DNA of 64,000 bases, taken from NCBI RefSeq assembly GCF_024713975.1, contig NC_091096.1:20682458-20746457 (forward strand), read 5' to 3'. This stretch comes from Paralichthys olivaceus. Lineage: Eukaryota > Chordata > Actinopteri > Pleuronectiformes > Paralichthyidae. The stretch's first letter is position 1, and every line of letters begins with the position of its first letter. The notes under the pieces are model-generated. The model was not told the DNA's origin and searched no databases. It saw only the letters and a list, made by a program, of their open reading frames with translations. The translations under genes and the position numbers were made by a program. Below are positions 19,943-54,121 of the stretch, piece by piece.

Positions 19943-20206
19943 TCAATGCCCAACGGCACATTTAATGTTGCCATTTTCAATGCAGAGTAATCCCAACATA
20001 ACAAATTCACAGCTGCACATGCAGTAGAGATGGTTTGCTTTTTTCTTGAGGATGTGTGATTGAAAGCACTTTGCCACAGATGCTAACACTACTGGATCAG
20101 GTACAAGTAGCATGTATTTCAGCTTCTTCTGAAATGTCAGTGTCCTCAATCCCCACTCCACCGCTGGCCTGCACTCACCGTATACTTGAACATTAAACAC
20201 CAACAA
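19943..20206 (-). pseudogene. Diverged fragment of the array protein (left outlier)
   Basis: The minus-strand translation contains KKLKYMLLVPDP, LASVAKCFQSHILKKKAN and a following Cys cluster, clearly related to the C-terminal third of the 221-codon frame repeated from 23.4 kb on. The N-terminal two thirds are missing; upstream sequence jumps straight to the shared right-flank sequence. This is a degraded copy outside the main array. Confidence 0.7.
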
Positions 20207-21125
20207 TAATCTAAAATTCTTAGGCCAGTACTGAAGTGATTACTTTTTACTTATTGGATTCACACAAGAGTTTATGAAATATGAAAAAATAACACTAGTT
20301 CGGTAAATCATTCATAGCACACACCACACATCCACAAACTTGTCTTTCACCGGATAGCTTGTCAACCTTTGGGCTATGACACTGAAGAAGATCTTGCCTT
20401 CCACATTGAGCAGAGTTATGGAAATTGGCTGATGTTTCTACTCTTTTGGTATCAGTATTCCTCCAGCTTTGTACAAAGCTTTGGGTTTTATTTGCTTCAC
20501 CCATGCCACTGTTATTTATTTCCACCAAAATTTTAAAAGATCAGTGTTATGGAAGTTTTCTAGAAACTGGTGAAAGGAGAACTCAGGCAGCAACTGATGT
20601 ATGCAGAAGAATCTATGCAGAACATTTTTATGTAGACTTGATGCATCAAGGAGACCAGAAGGTGCAACAATATATAAATGCTATCAGAGTAACATGAGCA
20701 TTTGTCACCCCCAAGTCTTAAGATGTCTCCCACAGCATTCCCATATATCTCACAATACTTGCATCACCCATTCCAACAACACATCCATGAAAGGCATGAA
20801 TTGCTGTCGCTCTCTATGTTACATGTAGATGTTCACATTCTATTGGACAGTTGTGCCTAAAGCATTCCTAAATAATTTTAAACAACTGTGTCCTTATGCC
20901 TTGCCATTGGTGTTATTTGCTAAAGAGTTGAAGTTAGTGCCACTCTGTCTAGGGCATCTGAATAAGATATGAAAGTCCCTGAGCGTACTAGACACTACAA
21001 TGTACTGCTCGTTGGCCCTTTATCTATAACCTGACCTTGCGTATTGCTTGGACAGAGGGAAGTATCTGTGGAACAAGGAAGGCCCCACTCTCCCAATGGT
21101 ATACAGATGTAATGTGTGAGTATGG
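20125..21125 (+). repeat. Left copy of a ~1 kb flanking duplication
   Basis: This stretch matches 37043-38408 in the same orientation. Shared landmarks are the run around GTGTCCTC...CACTCCACCGCTGGCC, then TTTGGGCTATGACACTGAAG, then GGCCCTTTATCTATAACCTG, then CCACTCTCCCAATGG. Several substitutions and small indels separate the copies, so the duplication is older than the near-identical array units. The right copy carries a 487-bp insertion absent here. Confidence 0.85.
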
Positions 21126-21129
21126 TAAA

Positions 21130-22120
21130 AGAAATCCTCAACAACTCCCCCCTTTTTGATCATGAGATCAACAAACCCTACTATCACAATAAAAACAGTG
21201 GTACATATGTTCGGCAGAGGAATAATAAAAGCTATACAATACAGTGGATAAAACACAGCATAAATTCAACATGAAGGTCTCACGCATCAGGCATTTATTT
21301 GAACCCCCCTCTCTTGGACAAACAAGTCGCCGAAGTCAAAACCTCTCTCAGCCAAGTAAAAGTTTTTTGGCAACCAATTAGTCCTCCTGATTTTTAAAGA
21401 TGTTATTCAAAGAATACATGATAATATAACAATCATTACAAGTACAAATGGGACTTATTTCTAGAATGTAATTGTTGGAGCTATTTAGAATGTTTATTAT
21501 ATATTCTAAATGTATTTAAATTATGTGTGTGTGTGTCTGTGTATATATTTGTAGATCACCATTTTGACCACTAGATGGTAGTATGCACCTTGGTTAGGAG
21601 GTAACACAGGACATATGGTTCTTACCGTAAGCGTAATCATAAATGTAATATAGGTAATATTAACAACAATTACAATGGAATATCAAACGGAGTAACTCTT
21701 CTAAAGCAATAAATCAACTGGATCATTTCACCTTCATCTCATCACAGTAATTCTTTATATCGTAACCATCAGTCTGCAATAAGCTGCAACATCACCCAAA
21801 GTTATGGCAAACATTTGGACATTCACTTACGCGTCAAGAACATTCTTTTTTCACCAATGTAAGTGACTACTTTGGAACAATGGAATTAAACTGATAGTCA
21901 CAACAGTAATACAACAATGATTGAGTCAAAACAATCAGATTAGATAAACCTAAACGTTAATCAAAGAGTAAAATTGATATCTTAACACCAGGGACTAGTT
22001 GGTTTCTTAAATTCAGGGGTGGGCACCGGTTTTTTCAATCAACGCCATTTTGATCCTTCGCGGGACACTGAGAAAAATAATTTTTTGGCTATGAATTTTT
22101 TTCCTTGCTTGTGTGGGGGT
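21130..22120. other. AT-rich stretch, no gene seen
   Basis: I see no coding signal. A (GT)n-like patch lies near 21523-21540. Confidence 0.45.
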
Positions 22121-22170
22121 CTAGGTGAGTGGGCCACATGATATGATTCCTGCCGATAGGCAGGAGGTGA

Positions 22171-22545
22171 TAAAAAGTCTACCCGTTTCAGGAGAGACTA
22201 TGGTGATACTACGTAATGAGTGTGCTTTCTTCCCTTCTGTAGCCATAAAAAGTCTACCCGTTTCAGGAGAGACTATGGTGATACTACGTAATGAGTGTGC
22301 TTTCTTCCCTTCTGTAGCCATAAAAAGTCTACCCGTTTCAGGAGAGACTATGGTGATACTACGTAAAGAGTGTGCTTTCTTCCCTTCTGTAGCCATAAAA
22401 AGTCTACCCGTTTCAGGAGAGACTATGGTGATACTACGTAATGAGTGTGCTTTCTTCCCTTCTGTAGCCATAAAAAGTCTACCCGTTTCAGGAGAGACTA
22501 TGGTGATACTACGTAATGAGTGTGCTTTCTTCCCTTCTGTAGCCA
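22171..22545. repeat. 75-bp tandem repeat, exactly five copies
   Basis: Copies start at 22171, 22246, 22321, 22396 and 22471. They are identical apart from one visible T-to-A change in copy 3 (GTAATGAG to GTAAAGAG). Because 75 is a multiple of three, both strands read open: 25-residue units on the plus strand (containing LPVSGETMVILR) and on the minus strand (MATEGKKAHSLRSITIV...). Each unit also holds a strong splice-acceptor-like tract, TTTCTTCCCTTCTGTAG. No protein family is recognised on either strand. Confidence 0.93.
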
Positions 22546-23417
22546 TAGAGGATGTGGTAAAAGGCCGGGCCTTTGCTGACACACTGTCCCTGTCTGTGGT
22601 GAGGCTGTAGTGGTGTGTATTCTTAACCTCAATACTACATGAACTTTCATTCCTTATATTTATTGTATAGTGCATGTTGATGTGTCAGGCTTGCTGTTGC
22701 CTCTCTTCTGTCTCTCCATAGTTGTCTGGTTGGGGTTTGTGCCAGCAAAACCCGACCTTCCTACGAGAAAAAGAGCAAACTCCAGTGTTTACCATTTAAT
22801 GAATCTGTTAATTGGCTTCCTACTTCATGCCTCTGGTATTTTTATAATTATTCATATGCTATTTATAATAAAATTAAATTGAACTTGCCAATCCTTCCTT
22901 TTTTGGGGAAGCCACATGATAGACTGATAAAGGTTAATGGTTTAAGGGTTCCTCCTGTCCCTAAGCGGGAGGTGGCGTTGTCAGTACAGTTTCTGTATTT
23001 AAGGGTCACCACACTTGTTTCTACAATAAAATATTATTAAAGTGCCTTTATTTCAAAATGCCATGTGGTATTTAATCTGCTACTTGTTTGTTATTAATTA
23101 TCAATCATCAAGTAATTTTTATCATTCACGCAAAGTAATATTAACTAGACTTCTGTCTTGACAACCTGACACAATTAATTCAGATTTAAAGAAAAATACC
23201 TTATTCAACAACACATTTAATAATCTTATCTATCTGTTTGAGAGATAAAATGCAACAGAAAGATATATGAAATGATTATGGACATAATGCTCATACATTA
23301 TTTATTCAAGACAGATCTTCATGTTCATATTTAGTATGAAATTTATTAGATTAAAAGGGGAAAACTGGAGCACCCGGAGAAAACCCTATACATTTTCCAA
23401 AAATAGGGGTGTTGGTT

Positions 23418-24083
23418 TTAGAGCAATAATGCAGCTATAAATAATATAATGAAAGGACCTGCAACTGATGCTAACCCTGTGACAGCTGTGATAACGTTCA
23501 GGATGCAATTACGGCTGCATATGCAGTAGTTTGCTTTTTTCTCGAGCATCTGTGATTGAAAACACTTTACCAGGGAAGCTAACGCTCCTGGATCAGGTAC
23601 AAGTGGCATGTATTTCAGCCTCTTGCCAAACTTGCTACGAAGCTTGGAATACACAGCCTTTGACACGTTCTTGCTGCACATGTGTGGAACAAAATCCTCT
23701 TTGAGTCCTTTTAGTATTTCTTTTACCAGACACTTTGTGAAGCTGTCCAACTCCTCATTGTTGATGTCCTTCAGTGCACACCTCTTGATGACTTCCATGA
23801 CCACCTTGGCAACAAACTCCTGGCGCTTCTTCTCTTCAGAATCCACACTGTCAGACCGATGCATCGATGGCATGCTATACTGTACGGAATGCATGTCATC
23901 TGAGCACAGGTTAATGGTGTCTAGCTGCTGCTGCACGGTGTCTGTGTGCTGCTGCATGGTGTCCAGGCCGTGCTGCTGCATGGGGTCTGTGTGTTGGTGC
24001 ACGTTGTCTTTTTGCTGCTGTAGGGGGTCCGAGTGCTGCTGCTCCTTGTGTTGTTGCTGCTCAATGTTGTCTGAATTCTCCAC
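23418..24083 (-). CDS. Array copy 1: unknown protein with hydrophobic C-terminus
   Basis: I do not recognise this family. The frame has 221 codons but the first listed codon is GTG; the first in-frame ATG comes about 34 codons later. Residues 1-55 are rich in Gln/His (blocks such as MQQHTDTVQQQ). The middle (about 75-165) is charged and probably helical (KVVMEVIKRC, FTKCLVKEILKGLKEDF, SKAVYSKLRSKFGKRL). A Cys cluster (CFQSQ...YCICSRNC) precedes a hydrophobic tail ending FIILFIAALLL, which would suit a tail anchor. The stop is followed by AATAAA at 23347-23342 and again at 23306-23301, on the same strand. The frame also stays open upstream of the GTG (GQERYNHIWHIDK), as in other copies, so a spliced 5' exon is possible. 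Confidence 0.5.
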   Translation of the reverse strand: MENSDNIEQQQHKEQQHSDPLQQQKDNVHQHTDPMQQHGLDTMQQHTDTVQQQLDTINLCSDDMHSVQYSMPSMHRSDSVDSEEKKRQEFVAKVVMEVIKRCALKDINNEELDSFTKCLVKEILKGLKEDFVPHMCSKNVSKAVYSKLRSKFGKRLKYMPLVPDPGALASLVKCFQSQMLEKKANYCICSRNCILNVITAVTGLASVAGPFIILFIAALLL

Positions 24084-24088
24084 TTTGT

Positions 24089-24289
24089 CTATATGCCAAA
24101 TATGATTGTATCGCTCTTGTCCAATGTTATCTGCTCTGCTTTCGTATGGCTTTCAGCAAGTGTTCTTTCTACAACGTGTGTTGAGCTGTTCATAGGCATT
24201 CTCCTCACCTCAAGGTTGTCAGTCAGCTTTTGATACTGTTCTGGAGTATGTTGATTCGACCCTTCTCCTCCCCCAAGGCTATCTTCCAC
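24089..24289 (-). other. Open frame upstream of array copy 1
   Basis: A 66-codon frame beginning at GTG ends in TAG six bases before the main frame. It is Ser/Thr/Glu-rich, without a domain I recognise. Its first ATG is internal (MPMNSSTH). The same frame recurs unchanged at 25653-25853, 27217-27417, 28785-28985, 30353-30553, 31598-31798, 33637-33837 and 34880-35080. It could be 5' UTR, an upstream exon or non-coding. Confidence 0.25.
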
Positions 24290-24981
24290 TGCTTTTTAAG
24301 CTGCCCACTCTGTTGTACCAAGCATTCTATTTCCAGCTGCCTTCAGGACTTAATTTAAGTTGTTTGGGTTATTAGTTTCCTCCAAAATGTTCTACTGCTT
24401 TGTCATACATAATGTTCCACATCAAACCCTATACATTTTCAAAAAATAGGGGAGTTTTAGAGTAATAATGCAGCTATAAATTATATAATGCAAGGACCTG
24501 CGACTGCAACTGATGCTAACCCTGTGACATCTGTGATAACGGTGAGGATGCATTTACGGCTGCATATACAGTAGTTTGCTTTTTTCTCGAGCATCTGTGA
24601 TTGAAAGCACTTTGACAGGGAAGCTAATTTTGAACGAACCGCTTGGCGAATGTCTTAGGAAAAAAAGTAATTTTTATCATTCAAGCAAAGTAATATTAAC
24701 TAGACTTCTGTATTGACAACCTGAACAACCTGACAAAATTAATTAAAATTTAAAGAAAAATACCTTATTCAACAACACATTTAATAATCTTATCTATCTG
24801 TTTGAGAGATAAAATGCAACAGAAAGTTACATGAAATGATTATGGACATAATGCTCATACATTATTTATTCAAGACAGATCTTCATGTTCATATTTAGTA
24901 TGAAATTTATTAGATTAAAAGGGGAAAACTGGAGCACCCGGAGAAAACCCTATACATTTTCCAAAAATAGGGGTGTTGGTT

Positions 24982-25647
24982 TTAGAGCAATAATGCAGCT
25001 ATAAATAATATAATGAAAGGACCTGCAACTGATGCTAACCCTGTGACAGCTGTGATAACGTTCAGGATGCAATTACGGCTGCATATGCAGTAGTTTGCTT
25101 TTTTCTCGAGCATCTGTGATTGAAAACACTTTACCAGGGAAGCTAACGCTCCTGGATCAGGTACAAGTGGCATGTATTTCAGCCTCTTGCCAAACTTGCT
25201 ACGAAGCTTGGAATACACAGCCTTTGACACGTTCTTGCTGCACATGTGTGGAACAAAATCCTCTTTGAGTCCTTTTAGTATTTCTTTTACCAGACACTTT
25301 GTGAAGCTGTCCAACTCCTCATTGTTGATGTCCTTCAGTGCACACCTCTTGATGACTTCCATGACCACCTTGGCAACAAACTCCTGGCGCTTCTTCTCTT
25401 CAGAATCCACACTGTCAGACCGATGCATCGATGGCATGCTATACTGTACGGAATGCATGTCATCTGAGCACAGGTTAATGGTGTCTAGCTGCTGCTGCAC
25501 GGTGTCTGTGTGCTGCTGCATGGTGTCCAGGCCGTGCTGCTGCATGGGGTCTGTGTGTTGGTGCACGTTGTCTTTTTGCTGCTGTAGGGGGTCCGAGTGC
25601 TGCTGCTCCTTGTGTTGTTGCTGCTCAATGTTGTCTGAATTCTCCAC
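24982..25647 (-). CDS. Array copy 2
   Basis: Same 221-codon translation as copy 1, at +1564 bp. No coding difference was noticed. GTG at the first codon; in-unit AATAAA after the stop. Confidence 0.48.
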   Translation of the reverse strand: MENSDNIEQQQHKEQQHSDPLQQQKDNVHQHTDPMQQHGLDTMQQHTDTVQQQLDTINLCSDDMHSVQYSMPSMHRSDSVDSEEKKRQEFVAKVVMEVIKRCALKDINNEELDSFTKCLVKEILKGLKEDFVPHMCSKNVSKAVYSKLRSKFGKRLKYMPLVPDPGALASLVKCFQSQMLEKKANYCICSRNCILNVITAVTGLASVAGPFIILFIAALLL

Positions 25648-26545
25648 TTTGTCTATATGCCAAATATGATTGTATCGCTCTTGTCCAATGTTATCTGCTC
25701 TGCTTTCGTATGGCTTTCAGCAAGTGTTCTTTCTACAACGTGTGTTGAGCTGTTCATAGGCATTCTCCTCACCTCAAGGTTGTCAGTCAGCTTTTGATAC
25801 TGTTCTGGAGTATGTTGATTCGACCCTTCTCCTCCCCCAAGGCTATCTTCCACTGCTTTTTAAGCTGCCCACTCTGTTGTACCAAGCATTCTATTTCCAG
25901 CTGCCTTCAGGACTTAATTTAAGTTGTTTGGGTTATTAGTTTCCTCCAAAATGTTCTACTGCTTTGTCATACATAATGTTCCACATCAAACCCTATACAT
26001 TTTCAAAAAATAGGGGAGTTTTAGAGTAATAATGCAGCTATAAATTATATAATGCAAGGACCTGCGACTGCAACTGATGCTAACCCTGTGACATCTGTGA
26101 TAACGGTGAGGATGCATTTACGGCTGCATATACAGTAGTTTGCTTTTTTCTCGAGCATCTGTGATTGAAAGCACTTTGACAGGGAAGCTAATTTTGAACG
26201 AACCGCTTGGCGAATGTCTTAGGAAAAAAAGTAATTTTTATCATTCAAGCAAAGTAATATTAACTAGACTTCTGTATTGACAACCTGAACAACCTGACAA
26301 AATTAATTAAAATTTAAAGAAAAATACCTTATTCAACAACACATTTAATAATCTTATCTATCTGTTTGAGAGATAAAATGCAACAGAAAGTTACATGAAA
26401 TGATTATGGACATAATGCTCATACATTATTTATTCAAGACAGATCTTCATGTTCATATTTAGTATGAAATTTATTAGATTAAAAGGGGAAAACTGGAGCA
26501 CCCGGAGAAAACCCTATACATTTTCCAAAAATAGGGGTGTTGGTT

Positions 26546-27211
26546 TTAGAGCAATAATGCAGCTATAAATAATATAATGAAAGGACCTGCAACTGATGCT
26601 AACCCTGTGACAGCTGTGATAACGTTCAGGATGCAATTACGGCTGCATATGCAGTAGTTTGCTTTTTTCTCGAGCATCTGTGATTGAAAACACTTTACCA
26701 GGGAAGCTAACGCTCCTGGATCAGGTACAAGTGGCATGTATTTCAGCCTCTTGCCAAACTTGCTACGAAGCTTGGAATACACAGCCTTTGACACGTTCTT
26801 GCTGCACATGTGTGGAACAAAATCCTCTTTGAGTCCTTTTAGTATTTCTTTTACCAGACACTTTGTGAAGCTGTCCAACTCCTCATTGTTGATGTCCTTC
26901 AGTGCACACCTCTTGATGACTTCCATGACCACCTTGGCAACAAACTCCTGGCGCTTCTTCTCTTCAGAATCCACACTGTCAGACCGATGCATCGATGGCA
27001 TGCTATACTGTACGGAATGCATGTCATCTGAGCACAGGTTAATGGTGTCTAGCTGCTGCTGCACGGTGTCTGTGTGCTGCTGCATGGTGTCCAGGCCGTG
27101 CTGCTGCATGGGGTCTGTGTGTTGGTGCACGTTGTCTTTTTGCTGCTGTAGGGGGTCCGAGTGCTGCTGCTCCTTGTGTTGTTGCTGCTCAATGTTGTCT
27201 GAATTCTCCAC
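26546..27211 (-). CDS. Array copy 3
   Basis: Same translation as copies 1 and 2, at +1564 bp from copy 2. The unit that follows its 5' side differs by the 4-bp indel in the second fragment (27609-27812 reads open where units with GAATGTC do not). Confidence 0.48.
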   Translation of the reverse strand: MENSDNIEQQQHKEQQHSDPLQQQKDNVHQHTDPMQQHGLDTMQQHTDTVQQQLDTINLCSDDMHSVQYSMPSMHRSDSVDSEEKKRQEFVAKVVMEVIKRCALKDINNEELDSFTKCLVKEILKGLKEDFVPHMCSKNVSKAVYSKLRSKFGKRLKYMPLVPDPGALASLVKCFQSQMLEKKANYCICSRNCILNVITAVTGLASVAGPFIILFIAALLL

Positions 27212-27608
27212 TTTGTCTATATGCCAAATATGATTGTATCGCTCTTGTCCAATGTTATCTGCTCTGCTTTCGTATGGCTTTCAGCAAGTGTTCTTTCTAC
27301 AACGTGTGTTGAGCTGTTCATAGGCATTCTCCTCACCTCAAGGTTGTCAGTCAGCTTTTGATACTGTTCTGGAGTATGTTGATTCGACCCTTCTCCTCCC
27401 CCAAGGCTATCTTCCACTGCTTTTTAAGCTGCCCACTCTGTTGTACCAAGCATTCTATTTCCAGCTGCCTTCAGGACTTAATTTAAGTTGTTTGGGTTAT
27501 TAGTTTCCTCCAAAATGTTCTACTGCTTTGTCATACATAATGTTCCACATCAAACCCTATACATTTTCAAAAAATAGGGGAGTTTTAGAGTAATAATGCA
27601 GCTATAAA

Positions 27609-27812
27609 TTATATAATGCAAGGACCTGCGACTGCAACTGATGCTAACCCTGTGACATCTGTGATAACGGTGAGGATGCATTTACGGCTGCATATACAGT
27701 AGTTTGCTTTTTTCTCGAGCATCTGTGATTGAAAGCACTTTGACAGGGAAGCTAATTTTGAACGAACCGCTTGGCGGTCTTTGGTCTTAGGAAAAAAAGT
27801 AATTTTTATCAT
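27609..27812 (-). pseudogene. Internal second fragment of the array frame
   Basis: Within each unit a diverged duplicate of the frame's 3' part (KCFQSQMLEKKANYCICSRK...) is fused to unrelated sequence. In this unit and at 29177-29380 and 35272-35475 the 4-bp-longer variant keeps it open. The other units carry the same fragment near 24480-24630, 26040-26200, 30740-30890, 31980-32140 and 34020-34180. It looks like a decayed half copy trapped in the unit before amplification. Confidence 0.6.
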
Positions 27813-28113
27813 TCAAGCAAAGTAATATTAACTAGACTTCTGTATTGACAACCTGAACAACCTGACAAAATTAATTAAAATTTAAAGAAAAATACCTTAT
27901 TCAACAACACATTTAATAATCTTATCTATCTGTTTGAGAGATAAAATGCAACAGAAAGTTACATGAAATGATTATGGACATAATGCTCATACATTATTTA
28001 TTCAAGACAGATCTTCATGTTCATATTTAGTATGAAATTTATTAGATTAAAAGGGGAAAACTGGAGCACCCGGAGAAAACCCTATACATTTTCCAAAAAT
28101 AGGGGTGTTGGTT

Positions 28114-28779
28114 TTAGAGCAATAATGCAGCTATAAATAATATAATGAAAGGACCTGCAACTGATGCTAACCCTGTGACAGCTGTGATAACGTTCAGGAT
28201 GCAATTACGGCTGCATATGCAGTAGTTTGCTTTTTTCTCGAGCATCTGTGATTGAAAACACTTTACCAGGGAAGCTAACGCTCCTGGATCAGGTACAAGT
28301 GGCATGTATTTCAGCCTCTTGCCAAACTTGCTACGAAGCTTGGAATACACAGCCTTTGACACGTTCTTGCTGCACATGTGTGGAACAAAATCCTCTTTGA
28401 GTCCTTTTAGTATTTCTTTTACCAGACACTTTGTGAAGCTGTCCAACTCCTCATTGTTGATGTCCTTCAGTGCACACCTCTTGATGACTTCCATGACCAC
28501 CTTGGCAACAAACTCCTGGCGCTTCTTCTCTTCAGAATCCACACTGTCAGACCGATGCATCGATGGCATGCTATACTGTACGGAATGCATGTCATCTGAG
28601 CACAGGTTAATGGTGTCTAGCTGCTGCTGCACGGTGTCTGTGTGCTGCTGCATGGTGTCCAGGCCGTGCTGCTGCATGGGGTCTGTGTGTTGGTGCACGT
28701 TGTCTTTTTGCTGCTGTAGGGGGTCCGAGTGCTGCTGCTCCTTGTGTTGTTGCTGCTCAATGTTGTCTGAATTCTCCAC
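28114..28779 (-). CDS. Array copy 4
   Basis: Same translation as copies 1-3, at +1568 bp from copy 3. Confidence 0.48.
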   Translation of the reverse strand: MENSDNIEQQQHKEQQHSDPLQQQKDNVHQHTDPMQQHGLDTMQQHTDTVQQQLDTINLCSDDMHSVQYSMPSMHRSDSVDSEEKKRQEFVAKVVMEVIKRCALKDINNEELDSFTKCLVKEILKGLKEDFVPHMCSKNVSKAVYSKLRSKFGKRLKYMPLVPDPGALASLVKCFQSQMLEKKANYCICSRNCILNVITAVTGLASVAGPFIILFIAALLL

Positions 28780-29681
28780 TTTGTCTATATGCCAAATATG
28801 ATTGTATCGCTCTTGTCCAATGTTATCTGCTCTGCTTTCGTATGGCTTTCAGCAAGTGTTCTTTCTACAACGTGTGTTGAGCTGTTCATAGGCATTCTCC
28901 TCACCTCAAGGTTGTCAGTCAGCTTTTGATACTGTTCTGGAGTATGTTGATTCGACCCTTCTCCTCCCCCAAGGCTATCTTCCACTGCTTTTTAAGCTGC
29001 CCACTCTGTTGTACCAAGCATTCTATTTCCAGCTGCCTTCAGGACTTAATTTAAGTTGTTTGGGTTATTAGTTTCCTCCAAAATGTTCTACTGCTTTGTC
29101 ATACATAATGTTCCACATCAAACCCTATACATTTTCAAAAAATAGGGGAGTTTTAGAGTAATAATGCAGCTATAAATTATATAATGCAAGGACCTGCGAC
29201 TGCAACTGATGCTAACCCTGTGACATCTGTGATAACGGTGAGGATGCATTTACGGCTGCATATACAGTAGTTTGCTTTTTTCTCGAGCATCTGTGATTGA
29301 AAGCACTTTGACAGGGAAGCTAATTTTGAACGAACCGCTTGGCGGTCTTTGGTCTTAGGAAAAAAAGTAATTTTTATCATTCAAGCAAAGTAATATTAAC
29401 TAGACTTCTGTATTGACAACCTGAACAACCTGACAAAATTAATTAAAATTTAAAGAAAAATACCTTATTCAACAACACATTTAATAATCTTATCTATCTG
29501 TTTGAGAGATAAAATGCAACAGAAAGTTACATGAAATGATTATGGACATAATGCTCATACATTATTTATTCAAGACAGATCTTCATGTTCATATTTAGTA
29601 TGAAATTTATTAGATTAAAAGGGGAAAACTGGAGCACCCGGAGAAAACCCTATACATTTTCCAAAAATAGGGGTGTTGGTT

Positions 29682-30347
29682 TTAGAGCAATAATGCAGCT
29701 ATAAATAATATAATGAAAGGACCTGCAACTGATGCTAACCCTGTGACAGCTGTGATAACGTTCAGGATGCAATTACGGCTGCATATGCAGTAGTTTGCTT
29801 TTTTCTCGAGCATCTGTGATTGAAAACACTTTACCAGGGAAGCTAACGCTCCTGGATCAGGTACAAGTGGCATGTATTTCAGCCTCTTGCCAAACTTGCT
29901 ACGAAGCTTGGAATACACAGCCTTTGACACGTTCTTGCTGCACATGTGTGGAACAAAATCCTCTTTGAGTCCTTTTAGTATTTCTTTTACCAGACACTTT
30001 GTGAAGCTGTCCAACTCCTCATTGTTGATGTCCTTCAGTGCACACCTCTTGATGACTTCCATGACCACCTTGGCAACAAACTCCTGGCGCTTCTTCTCTT
30101 CAGAATCCACACTGTCAGACCGATGCATCGATGGCATGCTATACTGTACGGAATGCATGTCATCTGAGCACAGGTTAATGGTGTCTAGCTGCTGCTGCAC
30201 GGTGTCTGTGTGCTGCTGCATGGTGTCCAGGCCGTGCTGCTGCATGGGGTCTGTGTGTTGGTGCACGTTGTCTTTTTGCTGCTGTAGGGGGTCCGAGTGC
30301 TGCTGCTCCTTGTGTTGTTGCTGCTCAATGTTGTCTGAATTCTCCAC
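29682..30347 (-). CDS. Array copy 5
   Basis: Same translation as copies 1-4, at +1568 bp from copy 4. It is the last full-length near-identical copy before the deleted forms begin. Confidence 0.48.
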   Translation of the reverse strand: MENSDNIEQQQHKEQQHSDPLQQQKDNVHQHTDPMQQHGLDTMQQHTDTVQQQLDTINLCSDDMHSVQYSMPSMHRSDSVDSEEKKRQEFVAKVVMEVIKRCALKDINNEELDSFTKCLVKEILKGLKEDFVPHMCSKNVSKAVYSKLRSKFGKRLKYMPLVPDPGALASLVKCFQSQMLEKKANYCICSRNCILNVITAVTGLASVAGPFIILFIAALLL

Positions 30348-31262
30348 TTTGTCTATATGCCAAATATGATTGTATCGCTCTTGTCCAATGTTATCTGCTC
30401 TGCTTTCGTATGGCTTTCAGCAAGTGTTCTTTCTACAACGTGTGTTGAGCTGTTCATAGGCATTCTCCTCACCTCAAGGTTGTCAGTCAGCTTTTGATAC
30501 TGTTCTGGAGTATGTTGATTCGACCCTTCTCCTCCCCCAAGGCTATCTTCCACTGCTTTTTAAGCTGCCCACTCTGTTGTACCAAGCATTCTATTTCCAG
30601 CTGCCTTCAGGACTTAATTTAAGTTGTTTGGGTTATTAGTTTCCTCCAAAATGTTCTACTGCTTTGTCATACATAATGTTCCACATCAAACCCTATACAT
30701 TTTCAAAAAATAGGGGAGTTTTAGAGTAATAATGCAGCTATAAATTATATAATGCAAGGACCTGCGACTGCAACTGATGCTAACCCTGTGACATCTGTGA
30801 TAACGGTGAGGATGCATTTACGGCTGCATATACAGTAGTTTGCTTTTTTCTCGAGCATCTGTGATTGAAAGCACTTTGACAGGGAAGCTAATTTTGAACG
30901 AACCGCTTGGCGAATGTCTTAGGAAAAAAAGTAATTTTTATCATTCAAGCAAAGTAATATTAACTAGACTTCTGTATTGACAACCTGAACAACCTGACAA
31001 AATTAATTAAAATTTAAAGAAAAATACCTTATTCAACAACACATTTAATAATCTTATCTATCTGTTTGAGAGATAAAATGCAACAGAAAGTTACATGAAA
31101 TGATTATGGACATAATGCTCATACATTATTTATTCAAGACAGATCTTCATGTTCATATTTAGTATGAAATTTATTAGATTAAAAGGGGAAAACTGGAGCA
31201 CCCTGAGAAAAAACCCCTTTCAGTATTTCTTTTACCAGACACTTTGTGAAGCTGTCCAACTT

Positions 31263-31592
31263 CTAATCGTTGGTTTCCTTCAGTTTACACCTCTTGATGA
31301 CTTCCATGACCACCCCGGCAACAAACTCCTGGCGCTTCTTCTCTTCAGAATCCACACTGTCAGACCGATGCATCGATGGCATGCTATACTGTACGGAATG
31401 CATGTCATCTGAGCACAGGTTAATGGTGTCTAGCTGCTGCTGCACGGTGTCTGTGTGCTGCTGCACGGTGTCTGGGCCGTGCTGCTGCATGGGGTCTGTG
31501 TGTTGGTGCACGTTGTCTTTTTGCTGCTGTAGGGGGTCCGAGTGCTGCTGCTCCTTGTGTTGTTGCTGCTCAATGTTGTCTGAATTCTCCAC
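31263..31592 (-). pseudogene. Array copy 6, C-terminally truncated
   Basis: The Q/H-rich N-terminal half is kept but the frame ends early after KRCKLKETND. About 320 bp is missing at a junction reading GAGCACCCTGAGAAAAAACC then CCTTTCAGTATTTC. The whole charged/Cys/hydrophobic part is lost, so if translated it would be soluble. Confidence 0.7.
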
Positions 31593-32507
31593 TTTGTCTA
31601 TATGCCAAATATGATTGTATCGCTCTTGTCCAATGTTATCTGCTCTGCTTTCGTATGGCTTTCAGCAAGTGTTCTTTCTACAACGTGTGTTGAGCTGTTC
31701 ATAGGCATTCTCCTCACCTCAAGGTTGTCAGTCAGCTTTTGATACTGTTCTGGAGTATGTTGATTCGACCCTTCTCCTCCCCCAAGGCTATCTTCCACTG
31801 CTTTTTAAGCTGCCCACTCTGTTGTACCAAGCATTCTATTTCCAGCTGCCTTCAGGACTTAATTTAAGTTGTTTGGGTTATTAGTTTCCTCCAAAATGTT
31901 CTACTGCTTTGTCATACATAATGTTCCACATCAAACCCTATACATTTTCAAAAAATAGGGGAGTTTTAGAGTAATAATGCAGCTATAAATTATATAATGC
32001 AAGGACCTGCGACTGCAACTGATGCTAACCCTGTGACATCTGTGATAACGTTGAGGATGCATTTACGGCTGCATATACAGTAGTTTGCTTTTTTCTCGAG
32101 CATCTGTGATTGAAAGCACTTTGACAGGGAAGCTAATTTTGAACGAACCGCTTGGCGAATGTCTTAGGAAAAAAAGTAATTTTTATCATTCAAGCAAAGT
32201 AATATTAACTAGACTTCTGTATTGACAACCTGAACAACCTGACAAAATTAATTAAAATTTAAAGAAAAATACCTTATTCAACAACACATTTAATAATCTT
32301 ATCTATCTGTTTGAGAGATAAAATGCAACAGAAAGTTACATGAAATGATTATGGACATAATGCTAATACATTATTTATTCAAGACAGATCTTCATGTTCA
32401 TATTTAGTATGAAATTTATTAGATTAAAAGGGGAAAACTGGAGCACCCTGAGAAAAAACCCCTTTCAGTATTTCTTTTACCAAACACTTTGTGAAGCTGT
32501 CCAACTT

Positions 32508-32853
32508 CTAATCGTTGGTTTCCTTCAGTTTACACCTCTTGATGACTTCCATGACCACCCCGGCAACAAACTCCTGGCGCTTCTTCTCTTCAGAATCCAC
32601 ACTGTCAGACCGATGCATCGATGGCATGCTATACTGTACGGAATGCATGTCACCTGAGCACAGGTTAATAGTGTCTAGCTGCTGCTGCACATGCTCAGTT
32701 TGCTGCTACACAGTATATATGTGCTGCTGCACGGTGTCCGGGCCGTGCTGCTGCATGGGGTCTGTGTGTTGCTGCACGTTGTCTTGTTGCTGCTGTAGGG
32801 GGTCAGAGGGCTGCTGCTCTTTGTCTTGCTACTGCTCCATGTTGTCTGTATTC
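32508..32853 (-). pseudogene. Array copy 7, truncated and interrupted
   Basis: It shares the deletion junction and the ending KRCKLKETND with copy 6. The Gln-rich part has diverged and holds an in-frame stop (TAG just before QQTEHVQQQL, on the minus strand near 32700). Not translatable as one protein. Confidence 0.7.
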
Positions 32854-33121
32854 TCCACTTTGTCTCTATGCCAAATATGATTGTATCGCTCTTGTCCTAT
32901 GTTATGTGCACTGATTTCATATGGCTTCGAGAAACTGTTCTTTCTACAGCGTGACAATGTTCCACAACAGAGCCCCATACATTTAGAAGAAAATGGGGGT
33001 GTTGGTTTTAGAGCAATAATGCAGCTATAAATAATAACATTCAGGATGCAATTACGGCTGCATATGCAGTAGTTTGCTTTTTTCTCGAGCATCTGTGATT
33101 GAAAACACTTTACCAGGGAAG

Positions 33122-33631
33122 CTAACACTCCAGATCAGGTACAGGTACAAGTAGCATGTATTTCAGCCTCTTGCCAAACTTGCTATGAAGCTTGGAATAC
33201 ACAGCCTTTGACACGTTCTTGCTGCACATGTGTGGAACAAAATCCTCTTTGAGTCCTTTTAGTATTTCTTTTACCAGACACTTTGTGAAGCTGTCCAACT
33301 CCTCATTGTTGATGTCCTTCAGTGCACACCTCTTGATGACTTCCATGACCACCTTGGCAACAAACTCCTGGCGCTTCTTCTCTTCAGAATCCACACTGTC
33401 AGACCGATGCATTGCTGGCATGCTATACTGTACGGAATGCATGTCATCTGAGCACAGGTTAATGGTGTCTAGCTGCTGCTGCACGGTGTCTGTGTGCTGC
33501 TGCACGGTGTCCGGGCCGTGCTGCTGCATGGGGTCTGTGTGTTGCTGCACGTTGTCTTGTTGCTGCTGTAGGGGGTCCGAGTGCTGCTGCTCCTTGTGTT
33601 GTTGCTGCTCAATGTTGTCTGAATTCTCCAC
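33122..33631 (-). pseudogene. Array copy 8, mosaic with altered C-terminus
   Basis: The frame matches the full-length copies to KRLKYMLLVP. An insertion of a few bases (CAGGTACAGGTACAAG region near 33136) then shifts it, ending in PDLEC. The Cys cluster and hydrophobic tail follow in another frame (33000-33125). Upstream on the plus strand it abuts copy 7, forming the 2039-bp unit. Confidence 0.6.
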
Positions 33632-34628
33632 TTTGTCTATATGCCAAATATGATTGTATCGCTCTTGTCCAATGTTATCTGCTCTGCTTTCGTATGGCTT
33701 TCAGCAAGTGTTCTTTCTACAACGTGTGTTGAGCTGTTCATAGGCATTCTCCTCACCTCAAGGTTGTCAGTCAGCTTTTGATACTGTTCTGGAGTATGTT
33801 GATTCGACCCTTCTCCTCCCCCAAGGCTATCTTCCACTGCTTTTTAAGCTGCCCACTCTGTTGTACCAAGCATTCTATTTCCAGCTGCCTTCAGGACTTA
33901 ATTTAAGTTGTTTGGGTTATTAGTTTCCTCCAAAATGTTCTACTGCTTTGTCATACATAATGTTCCACATCAAACCCTATACATTTTCAAAAAATAGGGG
34001 AGTTTTAGAGCAATAATGCAGCTATAAATTATATAATGAAAGGACCTGCGACTGCAACTGATGCTAACCCTGTGACACCTGTGATAACGTTGAGGATGCA
34101 TTTACGGCTGCATATACAGTAGTTTGCTTTTTTCTCGAGCATCTGTGATTGAAAGCACTTTGACAGGGAAGCTAATTTTGAACGAACCGCTTGGCGAATG
34201 TCTTAGGAAAAAAAGTAATTTTTATCATTCAAGCAAAGTAATATTAACTAGACTTCTGTATTGACAACCTGAACAACCTGACAAAATTAATTAAAATTTA
34301 AAGAAAAATACCTTATTCAACAACACATTTAATAATCTTATCTATCTGTTTGAGAGATAAAATGCAACAGAAAGTTACATGAAATGATTATGGACATAAT
34401 GCTCATACATTATTTATTCAAGACAGATCTTCATGTTCATATTTAGTATGAAATTTATTAGATTAAAAGGGGAAAACTGGAGCACCCTGAGAAAAAACCC
34501 CTTTCAGTATTTCTTTTACCAGACACTTTGTGAAGCTGTCCAACTTCTAATCGTTGGTTTCCTTCAGTTTACACCTCTTGATGACTTCCATGACCACCCC
34601 GGCAACAAACTCCTGGCGCTTCTTCTCT

Positions 34629-34874
34629 TCAGAATCCACAGTCAGACCGATGCATCGATGGCATGCTATACTGTACGGAATGCATGTCATCTGAGCACAG
34701 GTTAATGGTGTCTAGCTGCTGCTGCACGGTGTCTGTGTGCTGCTGCATGGTGTCCAGGCCGTGCTGCTGCATGGGGTCTGTGTGTTGGTGCACGTTGTCT
34801 TTTTGCTGCTGTAGGGGGTCCGAGTGCTGCTGCTCCTTGTGTTGTTGCTGCTCAATGTTGTCTGAATTCTCCAC
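34629..34874 (-). pseudogene. Array copy 9, truncated
   Basis: Same deletion junction as copies 6 and 7, plus a small deletion (CCACAGTCAGACC instead of CCACACTGTCAGACC) that shifts the frame so it ends in HRSDCGF. Confidence 0.7.
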
Positions 34875-35739
34875 TTTGTCTATATGCCAAATATGATTGT
34901 ATCGCTCTTGTCCAATGTTATCTGCTCTGCTTTCGTATGGCTTTCAGCAAGTGTTCTTTCTACAACGTGTGTTGAGCTGTTCATAGGCATTCTCCTCACC
35001 TCAAGGTTGTCAGTCAGCTTTTGATACTGTTCTGGAGTATGTTGATTCGACCCTTCTCCTCCCCCAAGGCTATCTTCCACTGCTTTTTAAGCTGCCCACT
35101 CTGTTGTACCAAGCATTCTATTTCCAGCTGCCTTCAGGACTTAATTTAAGTTGTTTGGGTTATTAGTTTCCTCCAAAATGTTCTACTGCTTTGTCATACA
35201 TAATGTTCCACATCAAACCCTATACATTTTCAAAAAATAGGGGAGTTTTAGAGTAATAATGCAGCTATAAATTATATAATGCAAGGACCTGCGACTGCAA
35301 CTGATGCTAACCCTGTGACATCTGTGATAACGTTGAGGATGCATTTACGGCTGCATATACAGTAGTTTGCTTTTTTCTCGAGCATCTGTGATTGAAAGCA
35401 CTTTGACAGGGAAGCTAATTTTGAACGAACCGCTTGGCGGTCTTTGGTCTTAGGAAAAAAAGTAATTTTTATCATTCAAGCAAAGTAATATTAACTAGAC
35501 TTCTGTATTGACAACCTGAACAACCTGACAAAATTAATTAAAATTTAAAGAAAAATACCTTATTCAACAACACATTTAATAATCTTATCTATCTGTTTGA
35601 GAGATAAAATGCAACAGAAAGTTACATGAAATGATTATGGACATAATGCTCATACATTATTTATTCAAGACAGATCTTCATGTTCATATTTAGTATGAAA
35701 TTTATTAGATTAAAAGGGGAAAACTGGAGCACCCTGAGA

Positions 35740-36060
35740 AAAAACCCCTTTCAGTATTACTTTTATCAGACACTTTGTTAAACTGTACAACTTCTAATCA
35801 TTGGTTTCCTTCAGTTTACACCTCTTGATGACTTCCATGACCACCCCGGCAACAAACTCCTGGCGCTTCTTCTTTTCAGAATCCACACTGTCAGACCGAT
35901 GCATCGATGGCATGCTATACTGTACGGAATGCATGTCATGTTGTCTTATTGCTGCACGTTGTCTTGTTGCTGCTGTAGGGGGTCAGAGGGCTGCTGCTCT
36001 TTGTCTTGTTGCTGCTCAATGTTGTCTGTATTCTCCACTTTGTCTCTATGCCAAATATGA
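35740..36060 (-). pseudogene. Array copy 10, truncated and rearranged
   Basis: It carries the shared deletion junction. Most of the middle of the Gln-rich segment is also deleted (GCATGTCATGTTGTCTTATT). It lies directly beside the diverged terminal copy. Confidence 0.6.
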
Positions 36061-36189
36061 TTGTATCGCTCTTGTCCTATGTTATGTGCACTGATTTTGT
36101 ATGGCTTTCAGAAAGTGTTCTTTCTACAGCGTGACATAATGTTCCACATCAGAACCCCATACATTTAGAAGAAAATGGGGGTGTTGGTT

Positions 36190-36777
36190 TTAGAGCAATA
36201 ATGCAGCTATAAATAATATAATTAAAGGACCTGCAACTGCAACTGATGCTAACCCTGTGGCAGCCGTGATAACATTCAGGATGCAATTACGGCTGCATAT
36301 GCAGTAGTTTGCTTTTTTCTCGAGCATCTGTGATTGAAAACACTTTACCAGGGAAGCTAACGCTCCTGGATCAGGTAGAAGTAGCATGTATTTCAGCTTC
36401 TTGCCAAACTCGCTACGAAGCTTGGAATACACAGCCTTTGACACGTTCTTGCTGCATATGTGTGGAACAAAATCCTCTTTGAGTCCTTTTAGTATGTCTT
36501 TTACCAGACACTTTGTGAGGCTGTCCAACTCTTCACTGTTGATGTCCTTCAGTTTACACCTCTTGATGACTTCCATGACCACCTCAGTAACAAACTTCTG
36601 GCGCTTCTCTACAGAATCCACACTGTCAGACTGATGCATGTTATTCTCCTCGGAATTCATGTCATCTGTGCACAGGTTAGTGTCTAGTTGCTGCTGCTCT
36701 TGCTCATTTTGGGGCGGCAGATTTTCCTTGCTACCCACAGTGCTTGGTTTCTGCTTCATGTTGTCTGTATTCTCCAT
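36190..36777 (-). CDS. Terminal diverged copy, intact with ATG start
   Basis: A 195-codon frame starts with a true ATG (36777-36775) at the position where amplified copies have GTG. Compared with copy 1 it has a shorter, less repetitive Gln/Glu-rich N-terminus (NEQEQQQLDTNLCTDD) but a well conserved charged middle (EVVMEVIKRCKLKDI, DFVPHICSKNVSKAVYSKL), Cys cluster and hydrophobic tail ending LIILFIAALLL. Many differences across the gene with no frameshift suggest past protein-level constraint. No name or function can be given. It may be the founder from which the array arose, since it sits beside the unduplicated flank. Confidence 0.6.
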   Translation of the reverse strand: MENTDNMKQKPSTVGSKENLPPQNEQEQQQLDTNLCTDDMNSEENNMHQSDSVDSVEKRQKFVTEVVMEVIKRCKLKDINSEELDSLTKCLVKDILKGLKEDFVPHICSKNVSKAVYSKLRSEFGKKLKYMLLLPDPGALASLVKCFQSQMLEKKANYCICSRNCILNVITAATGLASVAVAGPLIILFIAALLL

Positions 36778-36951
36778 TCTGTCTGTATGCCAAATTTGAC
36801 AGTATTGGTGTTGTCCTATTGTGTGCTCTGTCTACAGCGTGTGTTGATGCTACAGCACATTGTTGTTGTTGTAGAACAAAATGCTTTTACATAAAAGACA
36901 TTTAAAAAAATAAAGACATCAAATGTCTTTAATGTAAAGATTAATTACATG

Positions 36952-37069
36952 TGGTGGAGTGAGGACACTGACATCACAAATGAGATCAAAGGAAATTTGC
37001 TGTTGCTGATCAAGGGAAATTTCCCTTGATCTCACTTGTTATGTCAGTGTCCTCCCTCCCCACTCCACC
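36952..37069. repeat. Long imperfect palindrome at the array edge
   Basis: Left arm 36952-36998 and right arm 37018-37069 are inverted copies (GTGGTGGAGTGAGGACACTG against CAGTGTCCTCCCTCCCCACT, continuing inward). The centre contains a perfect 24-bp palindrome at 37008-37031 built on AAGGGAAATTTCCCTT. It separates the terminal array copy from the right flanking duplication. Confidence 0.85.
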
Positions 37070-38408
37070 GCTGGCCTGCACCCACTGTATACTTTAACAA
37101 TAAACCAACAATAATCTGAAATTATTAGGCCATGTCCAGTACTGAAGTAGTTACTTTGTAATTATTTACTTATATACATGAACCACACATCCACAAACTT
37201 GTCTTTCATTGGATAGCTTGTCAACCTTTGGGCTATGACACTGAAGAAGATCTTGCCTCCCACATTGAGGAGAATTATGGGCTAAAATTGGCAGATTTTA
37301 TTTGCTTCTGTACTTGTCTTGGACCTGGACTTGAAGGAGGACTGTATGAAACAGAAAATCACTCCACTTGGATGAAAACAAAAAGGGCTAAGAACTACAA
37401 ATTCAAAACACTCCCTAAAGATGAAAACCAAACTCGGTTCAAGAAAGACCAAATGAAAACGCACTCCTAAAAAACGGAGGCTCTACTACTCACTATGAAA
37501 TTCTTAACTAGAACAAAAAAACACTCCTAAGGAGGCTATGAAAATGGCTATGAAACTTAAACTACGCACGACACTAAAGTACAAACCAAAGGTCACTCCA
37601 CTGGAGGTAAAGAAAACGGGTTACGTAAAACACATGAAGGTAATGAGCAACAGGTGGACACGATCAGACTATCAGAGCGGTGACACATGAGGAAGGTCAA
37701 GTGACCTGAAATGAGAGGAGAGTTAATTTTCAAAATAAAACAGGAAGTCACGAGACAAAAACCCAGAACAAGACAAACCTCACTGCGGTGTGACAGCTTC
37801 ACCCATGCCATTGTCATTTCTTTCCACAAAAAGTTTAGAAGATGAGTGCTATGGAAGATTTCTTAGGAAGCTGGTGAAAAGAGAAGTCCGGCAGAAACTG
37901 ATGTCTTATGCACAAGATTTTAATGTAGACTTGATGAATCAAGGAGACCAGAAAGTGCAACAATATACAAACACTAACAGAGTATCATAAGCATTTGTCA
38001 CTCCCAAGTCTGAAGATGTCTCCCACAGCATTCCCATATATCTCACAATACTTGCATCACCCATTACGACAGCATATCAAAGAAAGGGTACAATCGCTGT
38101 CACTCTTTATGTTCCATGTAGTATTCACATCCTTTTAGATCGTTGAGACTAAAGATAACATTCCTAAATCATGTTTTGTCCTTTTGTCTTGCCACTGGTG
38201 AAATATGCAAAAGAGGCAGAGTTAGTGTGTCTCTGTCTGGGGCATCTGAGTTAGATATGAAATTCCCTCAACGTAGACAGTACAATCTACTGCTGGTTGG
38301 CCCTTTATCTATAACCTGACCGTGGGTATTGCTTGGAGAGAAGGGAGTGTCTGTGAAACGAGGCAGGCCCCACTCTCCCAATGGTGTACAGATGTACTGT
38401 GTGAGGAT
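37043..38408 (+). repeat. Right copy of the ~1 kb flanking duplication
   Basis: Direct-orientation partner of 20125-21125. Short frames such as SLEDECYGRF...NVDLMNQGDQKVQQY (37830-37965) have a counterpart in the left copy (VDLMHQGDQKVQQY), suggesting a decayed coding region shared by both, but neither copy forms a full gene. Confidence 0.85.
37309..37795. mobile_element. 487-bp insertion with 5-bp duplication, possible solo LTR
   Basis: Comparison with the left flank shows a clean insertion between TTTGCTTC and ACCCATGCC. The flanking GCTTC is duplicated (37304-37308 and 37796-37800). The insert begins TG and ends CA and has AATAAA near 37735. TG...CA ends with a 5-bp duplication fit a solo LTR. 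The absence of an internal region is expected for a solo LTR, but the family is unknown and a small DNA element is not excluded. Confidence 0.6.
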
Positions 38409-39469
38409 GCTCATAAATTCCTAAACAATCAGAACATTTCCAAGGGTTCACATCCATTTGATGGTCTCAGTTCATGCCTCTTTGGATCAGACTGTGTATT
38501 TTCAGGGTCCTCCGCTCTGGCCTGTTTCAAGGTCCTCAGGCTGACTTGTGTAGCTAACCCATGCCAGCCCCCATGGGGTCTTCTCTTTCCAGTCAGCTGT
38601 CATTCCTCACCATCACCCTTTTTGTCAGCTAACCTGTATTTAGCAGTCACTGGCTATATCCAACTACAATCAAAAAGATCATATAACTGTTGTGTATTCA
38701 CAAAATGGGGCCTGAAATGTGCGTATACCACTTCTCACGCAAACGTTTGGATTTATAAAAACAAACTTGACAGAAAAATTTGCACATTTCCACGCAAACT
38801 CTGACCCATGCGTATGAACATTTTGGAGACGGGAAAGTGGCATTGCAGACCTGAGGAGATGAACTGAAGCAGATTATTGATCCACTTCATCATTTCCATT
38901 CAAAGTAATAGCTTTAGCTGTGCTCGCGCGATGTAACTGTTCCATAAGAGCCTTCAATTTCAAAAGATATAAAACAGCTTACAGCAAATTAAGTTCAGAT
39001 ACCATTAAACAGCAGAGTTGGAGAGCCAAGTCATTAATAGTTTTAATCATATCTTTTAACACTGTGCATGTATCATTAAGGATGAGTGTGTGTAAAATCC
39101 CCACAGTGAAAGTGCCATCAGGATCCATCGCACAGCGCACTGGAGATCACTCACAAAAATAAAAAAATTAAATTTTACTTTCAAACTTATAGTTTCAAAT
39201 AATATCCCAGAGTGGAGGTTACGATCCACAGTCAGTCAGATTGCTCTAAATAAATAAATACTGCGGTGACATTCGTGTGTAATGCTGCGTGATGGATGCA
39301 CGCAAATGGAAGGCAGAGGAAAACGAGGGTTCAGCCACTGATCAGCTGATACAGATTCTATAGCTCTGTGATCCCCGATCTCTATGCTGAACTGAGTCCA
39401 GTATTAGATTGACTGACGGAACTGAACCATCCTAGTACAAACACAAGCATAAAATATATTTGCATATAG

Positions 39470-52967: not shown

Positions 52968-54121
52968 ATGAATGTGACGGCACCTCTGCTGCTGCTGCTT
53001 CTCACTGGTAAGACTGAAGTTGAACTATATCAGCCTGTTCCAGATCCTATTTGTAAAGGCTGATTCTGTGTGAATTACTTTTCTCACAGCTCAGTCGATA
53101 ATATTTCTATCTCTTGCAGCAGGACACTTATTTTCTCCTGATCTATTGTTTCTCCACCAGCTTGTATAGCCAGCGGTGCTCTGCTGCCCAAGGCATTATG
53201 GCAGTTTGGGAAGATGATCCAGTGCCCCCAGCCCACTGTTAACCCCCTGGCCTACAACGATTATGGCTGCTGGTGCGGCTTTGGCGGCAGTGGAACCCCT
53301 CGGGATGAACTAGACATGTAGGGAGCAGACATTCGTCAATAATTATCACTTCAGTCATCATCTTTAAAACAAAGAGACTCTTTTCACACTGGTCCTTTCC
53401 CTCCTGTATCCATAGGTGCTGTAAGGTTCACGACAAATGCTACGAAGCGAGCAGAAAGAAGCCCGGGTGCACGGCCATCGCCGACCTGCCTTACGTTCTG
53501 CTTTATGATTTCACCTGCTCAAACCAACAAGTGACCTGCTCAGGTACCATCATTTAAACTTCACTTTCATACTGTTAATCTACTACTAGCTGTTCCTTAA
53601 TGAAATGTTAAAATGAAATGAAATATGAAAAGTTCTTGGATGGCACTGGTCAAAATTACACAAAGAATAGGTTGAAGTTTTAATTAAAATACAGATATAC
53701 CCATAGATTGTATATAAAATATTACATATCCAGTACTTACCTTACCTTAGGATCTTGTCATTCACTGTAAACAGGTGTGAGGTGTAATGACATCTTTAGT
53801 TGGAGCTGTGTATAGGTGCTGTATATTTAGCAGCTGTAATTAAACAGCTATATATGGGTATTACACAACCAGCTTGAGACAAGTCCACAACAAACAAATG
53901 CTCTCCTGTGGAGCACTTTCACGCTGGCATCTGGAGAACCAAACCAAACTATTGCTAAAACATGTTTGACTTTTTGTTATAAACTCGTCTCCACAGCGAC
54001 CAACAACAAGTGCCAGGCTGCTGTGTGCGAGTGTGATCGGGTGGCGGCTCACTGCTTCGCTCAGAGCACATACAACCCTGAAAACAAGAACCTGGATTCC
54101 AAGGTCCACTGTGTCAACTGA
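52968..54121 (+). CDS. pla2g1b: Phospholipase A2 group IB (pancreatic type)
   Basis: This secreted, calcium-dependent enzyme hydrolyses the sn-2 ester of phospholipids in digestion. Four exons (52968-53007, 53161-53317, 53416-53543, 53997-54121) join in phase into 149 aa. A Leu-rich signal peptide (TAPLLLLLL) is followed by a short propeptide-like stretch and [11 protein letters not shown]. The calcium loop [13 protein letters not shown] (about 48-60) and the catalytic CCKVHDKCY with His71-Asp72 are intact. The C-terminal [12 protein letters not shown] supplies the conserved Asp and disulfide Cys. Unlike the 50.4-51.9 kb relic, no stop or missing motif is seen. AATAAA at 54222-54227. Confidence 0.95.

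Follow-up and report, generated by a model that had tools for sequence, protein, structure and literature searches.

A recently amplified or homogenized head-to-tail array beside an intact gene relative in Paralichthys olivaceus

Tandem pseudogene arrays under concerted evolution are among the closest described counterparts of the locus treated here, a head-to-tail array of ten copies of a short frame in the flounder Paralichthys olivaceus, adjoined by a diverged, intact relative that we call G0. The stretch analyzed, hereafter the window, comprises 64,000 nucleotides (assembly GCF_024713975.1, contig NC_091096.1, positions 20,682,458 to 20,746,457; G000:C4:20682458-20746457 in our numbering). 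Two systems known from fish offer further points of comparison. The gene gig1 is described as antiviral in excerpts of PMC7316828 and PMC4337036, and salmon carry three tandem gig1-like genes (PTHR38706) encoding 222-240 amino acids, whose first exon is small and whose frame lies in exon 2 (excerpts of PMC12247413). The starry flounder antifreeze locus, derived from Gig2, has 33 copies on one allele as against four on the other (excerpts of PMC9122973).

The array shares with tandem pseudogene arrays its head-to-tail order, lesioned copies beside one intact parent, mosaic exchange and a diverged outer edge, but differs in that its near-identical units keep one common long open frame. With Gig1 and gig1-like genes, as the excerpts of PMC12247413 describe them, G0 shares a short protein, a whole frame in one exon and tandem copies; a single-exon frame of about 200 codons (195 in G0) is nevertheless a weak criterion, and the flanks differ, being nlrp3-like and abcc6b.1 in salmon and malectin, HPS4, phospholipase A2 and AMPK beta here, so that the salmon gig1-like neighborhood was not found in this window. 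At the antifreeze locus, too, a small fish gene was amplified locally and head to tail, but its genes are described as expressed isoforms (excerpts of PMC9122973; the comparison is by description only). Gig2 itself is described as PARP-like, whereas no PARP-like domain was detected in G0 or in the A-type frame with Pfam at E values up to 1. We put at roughly 60% the probability that the array is a tandem duplication of a coding exon, homogenized by unequal crossing-over and gene conversion, and that its copies are mostly non-functional.

Organization of the array and exchange among its copies

The copies, delimited by self-comparison of the window and by mapping of a 283-bp module, run from 5' to 3' in the order G0, B1, B2, A', B3, B4, A5, A4, A3, A2 and A1, all on the minus strand (Table 1). 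An earlier note, made from the letters alone, had proposed recent head-to-tail amplification or strong homogenization beside a diverged intact relative, which self-comparison and module mapping confirm; of the nine unit phases it counted, the five nearly identical ones at 1564-1568 bp stand (the stop codons of successive frames lie 1564, 1564, 1568 and 1568 bp apart), and the total is revised to ten copies plus G0. The 666-bp frames of A1-A5 are a single distinct DNA sequence, and the five open frames therefore amount to one observation, whose openness counts once. Whole units A2-A5 are separated by 0-3 substitutions and a 4-bp length difference, with A3 and A4 identical across 1568 bp, and A1 departs from A2-A5 by 16-19 substitutions, the variable sites lying in the final 120 alignment columns of A1, on the outer side of the array. 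Either the copies were amplified recently or they were recently homogenized.

After the frame, A2-A5 have a tail and the 283-bp module, then a broken 3' part derived from another copy, and finally the 221-bp spacer; A1 has its own tail and module and nothing more. In each B copy a gene 5' part (2-10% different from that of A5) continues into the module, after which come a 3' part and the spacer, and A' has neither module nor spacer. Five of the ten array copies carry stops, deletions or a misplaced 3'-end segment, including a TAG common to all four B copies and an early stop in A'. The eight spacers are identical across 221 bp and match at least 16 further places in the genome (588 Mb, 25 contigs) at 70-90%, wholly or partially, for which reason we regard the spacer as a piece of a dispersed repeat.

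Divergence from G0 is mosaic. In the 5' part, A5 differs from G0 at 70 of 373 sites and A' at 70 of 374; in the 3' part the counts are 14 of 207 for A5 and 2 of 170 for A'. Runs identical to G0 of 103 sites (A5) and 154 sites (A') were equalled in none of 2000 permutations each. From this pattern we infer gene conversion with G0. Synonymous divergence between G0 and A is also low in the conserved part (dS of 0.04), which fits gene conversion better than constraint, although the fast-changing, Q-rich start adds to the contrast between 5' and 3' parts.

Start codon, flanks and codon changes

G0 begins with ATGGAGAAT, and all ten array copies read GTGGAGAAT at that place, that is, A1-A5, A' and B1-B4 have GTG where G0 has ATG. 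The 221-codon frame reported by the earlier note is present in five units, on the minus strand, but opens with GTG; its first in-frame ATG is codon 35, from which 187 codons remain. Of the 523 bp upstream of G0, the array repeats no more than a leader of about 50 bp (detected in B1 and B3 with the search setting used; an alignment of the copies shows the leader in those aligned), which leaves the array copies without the promoter side of the parent. Outside the array, this upstream region matches an old relic at 20134-20436 (73% alike). Because they have neither the start codon nor the upstream region, the array copies are likelier to be partly broken duplicates than extra working genes. The 60-nt leader of a relative on contig C5, which has an ATG, aligns to the G0 leader with a score equalled in 42 of 2000 shuffles (181 of 2000 for A5 versus C5), suggesting that ATG is ancestral and that the change ran from ATG to GTG; the alignment scores best at the first of two motif repeats in the leader, not at the one adjoining the ATG.

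Two other elements lie upstream of G0. A 113-bp segment (36951-37063) matches its own reverse complement at 83% and is hairpin-like, including GGGAAATTTCCC. Farther out, 37796-38428 and a segment beside the old relic (20494-21144) are copies of a dispersed repeat with at least 40 or so further matches in the genome, and a role for the former as part of the local duplication was accordingly dropped.

Codon changes between G0 and the A-type frame give ratios of non-synonymous to synonymous rates (dN/dS, omega) slightly above 1: 1.15 over 193 codons (13.2 synonymous and 54.8 non-synonymous changes), 1.18 over the last 144 (4 and 16) and 1.20 over the last 128 (3 and 12), with 1.17 for G0 versus A' over 89 codons. 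At least 16 non-synonymous changes out of 20 would arise with a chance of 0.007 at an omega of 0.3, 0.087 at 0.5 and 0.51 at 1. The data reject strong constraint (omega of 0.3 or less, P = 0.007) along the path connecting G0 with A, and are compatible with neutrality, mild constraint and adaptive change alike. A relaxed dN/dS between the terminal and amplified copies, which the earlier note had named, in combination with no transcript in any tissue, as a refuting sign, is therefore observed (1.15-1.2). Neutral simulations, which comprised substitutions only, left the 438-bp conserved part open in 59% of cases after 20 substitutions.

The AATAAA signals noted earlier in the units are confirmed, 18 of the 19 minus-strand sites in 23-37 kb being pairs in nine copies of the 283-bp module; the closest such sites downstream of G0 (35706 and 35665) lie within B1, the remnant of the next copy. 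A genome search with the module scored at least 23 matches (a lower bound), of which nine are full length, every one of them at this locus, and the remaining 14 cover it only in part. If an inner piece is duplicated head to tail, the end copies are expected to retain their outward flanks. The C5 relative has GGGTTTCTCCGGGTGCTC 43 nt past its stop codon, followed by AATAAA, and a nearly identical stretch, also followed by AATAAA, lies 31 nt past the stop codon in the A units (both distances counted from the printed sequence); in addition, an isolated, degenerate, A-type fragment on contig C7 (L021:4401-4635, G000:C7) keeps the tail-to-module junction, at 83% over 81 bp. On these two grounds, the module probably represents the native 3' end, which A1, as the last copy, would have retained and G0, as the first, would have lost; the idea that it is foreign DNA inserted into the gene was dropped.

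Related loci and the surrounding window

A search with the G0 protein (E values up to 0.001) found at least 34 places, 21 at this locus and 13 elsewhere (nine on contig C1 and one each on C5, C6, C7 and C9), the latter being distant relatives, 24-36% identical, apart from a 38-residue fragment on C7. The open relatives on C1, C5, C6 and C9 comprise 146-208 codons from an ATG and are 23-29% identical to G0 over the core and the hydrophobic C-terminal end; a search from the C5 member recovered the same loci except C7. Open frames combined with protein likeness at such distance argue for a real protein family, and the G0 protein belongs to a multi-locus, fast-evolving family of this genome and is no orphan. 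The view that the protein is unrecognized thus holds for Pfam but not within the genome itself, and the suggestion of a satellite that had captured coding DNA is not supported, since among the matches listed (lower bounds in both searches) the full-length modules are all local and the protein matches elsewhere are distant relatives or the C7 fragment.

The family has a second array, on C1 (L011-L015, G000:C1:25137424-25176679), with five 229-codon stop-to-stop frames that contain ATG. Its first three frames are spaced 3436 bp apart, its first two units share 99.6% identity, and a second, related subgroup recurs at intervals of 10.9 kb. Between the two subgroups, both with open frames, omega is 1.17 (17.5 synonymous and 70.5 non-synonymous changes over 158 codons), and both frames stay open in 9% of neutral simulations at 88 changes and in 29% at 44. 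Frames at two near-identical places between the later copies presumably resemble a long terminal repeat retrotransposon, and we take a frame flanking this array to resemble SMAD6.

Neither G0 nor A matched any Pfam family at E values up to 1, and a Pfam search with eight family members gave no convincing family (twelve families, one member each, with a best E value of 0.0027). No convincing match was found in PHROGs (best E value, 0.011) or PDB (0.35, or 0.21 with a profile), and none in Rfam across the whole window at gathering scores; scans of the viral_contigs and genome_contigs collections, which detect close relatives only, confirmed no relative of G0. The single-sequence structure model of G0 has a mean predicted local distance difference test score of 43.3, and its helices (residues 56-73, 81-96, 104-107, 114-130, 137-152 and 163-194) are only suggestive; the product may be a small membrane-anchored protein. 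Nine matches to PF03446 (on C5, C6, C13 and C20) were uninformative about synteny; none shared a contig with a family locus at a distance of 10 Mb or less.

Gig1 (PTHR38706), compared by description only, is a lead for the identity of the G0 family; excerpts of PMC10991768, PMC8621919, PMC5591513, PMC5641065, PMC11091188 and PMC7316828 contain no gig1 sequence or primers. Within 3 kb upstream, G0 has no strict interferon element and one core site (0.27 expected), at -580, and A5 has no core site. The relatives on C5 and at 30.97 Mb on C1 have one core site each, and that on C9 and two frames of the C1 array have none. The C6 relative (L019, G000:C6, 23819473-23819910) has three (0.23 expected), one of them strict, the only strict site in the eight regions scanned. 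An antiviral role for G0 would be guesswork, prompted by its fast change, the arrays and the Gig1 lead.

Pfam matches were obtained for five of the nine neighboring frames scanned (Table 1). Elsewhere in the window, a 75-bp repeat in five copies (22170-22547, 99% matches) has open frames on both strands, of 184 and 161 codons, and 16822-17277 is a minisatellite of 22.8 copies of 20 bp (82% matches).

Table 1. Features of the window; the first coordinate of A1-A5 and of G0 is the stop-codon anchor of the intact frame.
Feature	Position	Strand	Description
Array	23110-36133	minus	Adjoins the intact relative G0
G0	36190-36777	minus	Intact frame in a single exon, 195 codons from its ATG; C-terminal end hydrophobic; 5'-most in cluster
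B1	35198-36133	minus	Gene 5' part with GTG and stops; 283-bp module 35742-35460; 3' part 35418-35198
B2	33955-34969	minus	Broken; composition as in B1
A'	33034-33726	minus	Full-length type; GTG, early stop, 3' deletion; 3' part nearly identical to G0
B3	31916-32953	minus	Broken copy
B4	30671-31687	minus	Broken copy
A5	29682-30347	minus	221-codon frame, GTG at opening
A4	28114-28779	minus	221-codon frame, DNA identical to A5
A3	26546-27211	minus	221-codon frame, DNA identical to A5
A2	24982-25647	minus	221-codon frame, DNA identical to A5
A1	23418-24083	minus	221-codon frame, DNA identical to A5; 3'-most copy
Terminal 283-bp module copy	23110-23383	minus	94% to other copies; two AATAAA; probably original gene 3' end
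Spacer, 221 bp	30450-30670	minus	One of eight identical array copies; dispersed-repeat piece
Old relic	20004-20436	minus	Gene 3' part and G0-upstream-like region
G0 upstream region	36778-37300	minus	Putative promoter side
Malectin	1271-1552		Pfam
HPS4	13118-13876		PDB match
First longin domain of INTU, CCZ1 and HPS4	15625-16032		Pfam
Phospholipase A2	53309-53554		Pfam
AMPK beta	56884-57210 and 56724-56969		Pfam; 56884-57210 also AMPK beta-1 in PDB

Origin of the array

Under the exon-duplication reading, G0, a gene of a fast-evolving family, would have been duplicated head to tail as a piece comprising the coding frame and about 95 bp of leader, an extent set by where the likeness ends and presumably corresponding to one exon. 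As the 5'-most member, G0 would have retained the original upstream region and ATG, and A1, the 3'-most, probably the original 3' end. The array copies would have lost the ATG (presumably by its change to GTG) and exchanged sequence with G0 by gene conversion, stops and deletions arising in five of the ten. Unequal crossing-over would have multiplied the copies and evened them, with the 1564/1568-bp segment as its latest unit. G0 would be the likely working gene, and the array copies would be mostly non-functional, their likeness kept by recombination and not by selection on the protein.

We think it rather probable that the amplified units are start-less, promoterless duplicates of the adjoining gene as opposed to a dosage-selected gene. 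Working genes amplified for dosage, with a GUG or internal AUG start, their own polyadenylation signals and a promoter in the spacer, would account for the five intact, identical frames and the AATAAA pair after each unit frame, and the ATG-containing frames of the C1 array are in their favor; a native start without ATG, an upstream region that was not copied, an omega of about 1.2 and the breakage of half the copies nonetheless make this unlikely. For these same reasons the dosage selection proposed in the earlier note is left weak, and so is its protein-coding unit, even though five frames are intact. It is very unlikely that the copies are alternative coding exons spliced to a common non-coding first exon upstream of G0: all lie downstream of G0 on the same strand with GCTGTAG or GTTGTAG in the leader at their start, as would suit an arrangement like the small first exon of salmon gig1-like genes (excerpts of PMC12247413), but by a crude score no convincing acceptor precedes the A5 sites (pyrimidine share of 0.56 at best), G0 itself reaches 0.56 near its start and 0.64 only at -222, outside the duplicated leader, and AATAAA signals lie between the copies. 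We give a slim chance to the array being a stock of donor sequence, in which conversion from promoterless copies would reshuffle the 3' coding part of a single expressed G0, with pseudogenes as the source of variants in a possibly antiviral family. Least probable of all is that the assembly has inflated the copy number from one or two real units; the identity of A3 and A4 would suit it, but the two unit lengths, the divergent edge of A1 and the distance of the B-copy 5' parts from A5 tell against it.

Several observations count against the exon-duplication reading itself. The GTG has A at -3 and G at +4, a favorable start context, and a start at the internal ATG would keep the whole conserved domain; the five intact 221-codon frames, moreover, precede AATAAA signals. 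The C5 leader match behind the ancestral ATG is weak and falls on the first leader repeat. The C5-like 3' stretch was not found within 140 nt in four other relatives (at 30.97 Mb on C1, on C6, on C9 and in the C1 array), and like stretches occur twice more near C5, so that this stretch may be a repeat. As for selection, an omega of 0.5 is not rejected (P = 0.087), values near 1 also fit adaptive change, and A versus A' gives 0.84, from few changes (2.5 synonymous and 8.5 non-synonymous over 165 codons). Finally, neutral simulations leave the complete G0 frame open in only 13% of cases at 68 substitutions and in 36% at 34.

The locus illustrates how a repeated open frame can mislead, in that recombination turns one frame into five, and only the start codon, together with the flanking sequence and the codon changes, discriminates. 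A family without a Pfam model, with recent arrays on two chromosomes of one genome and dN/dS near or slightly above 1, is a candidate for arms-race evolution.

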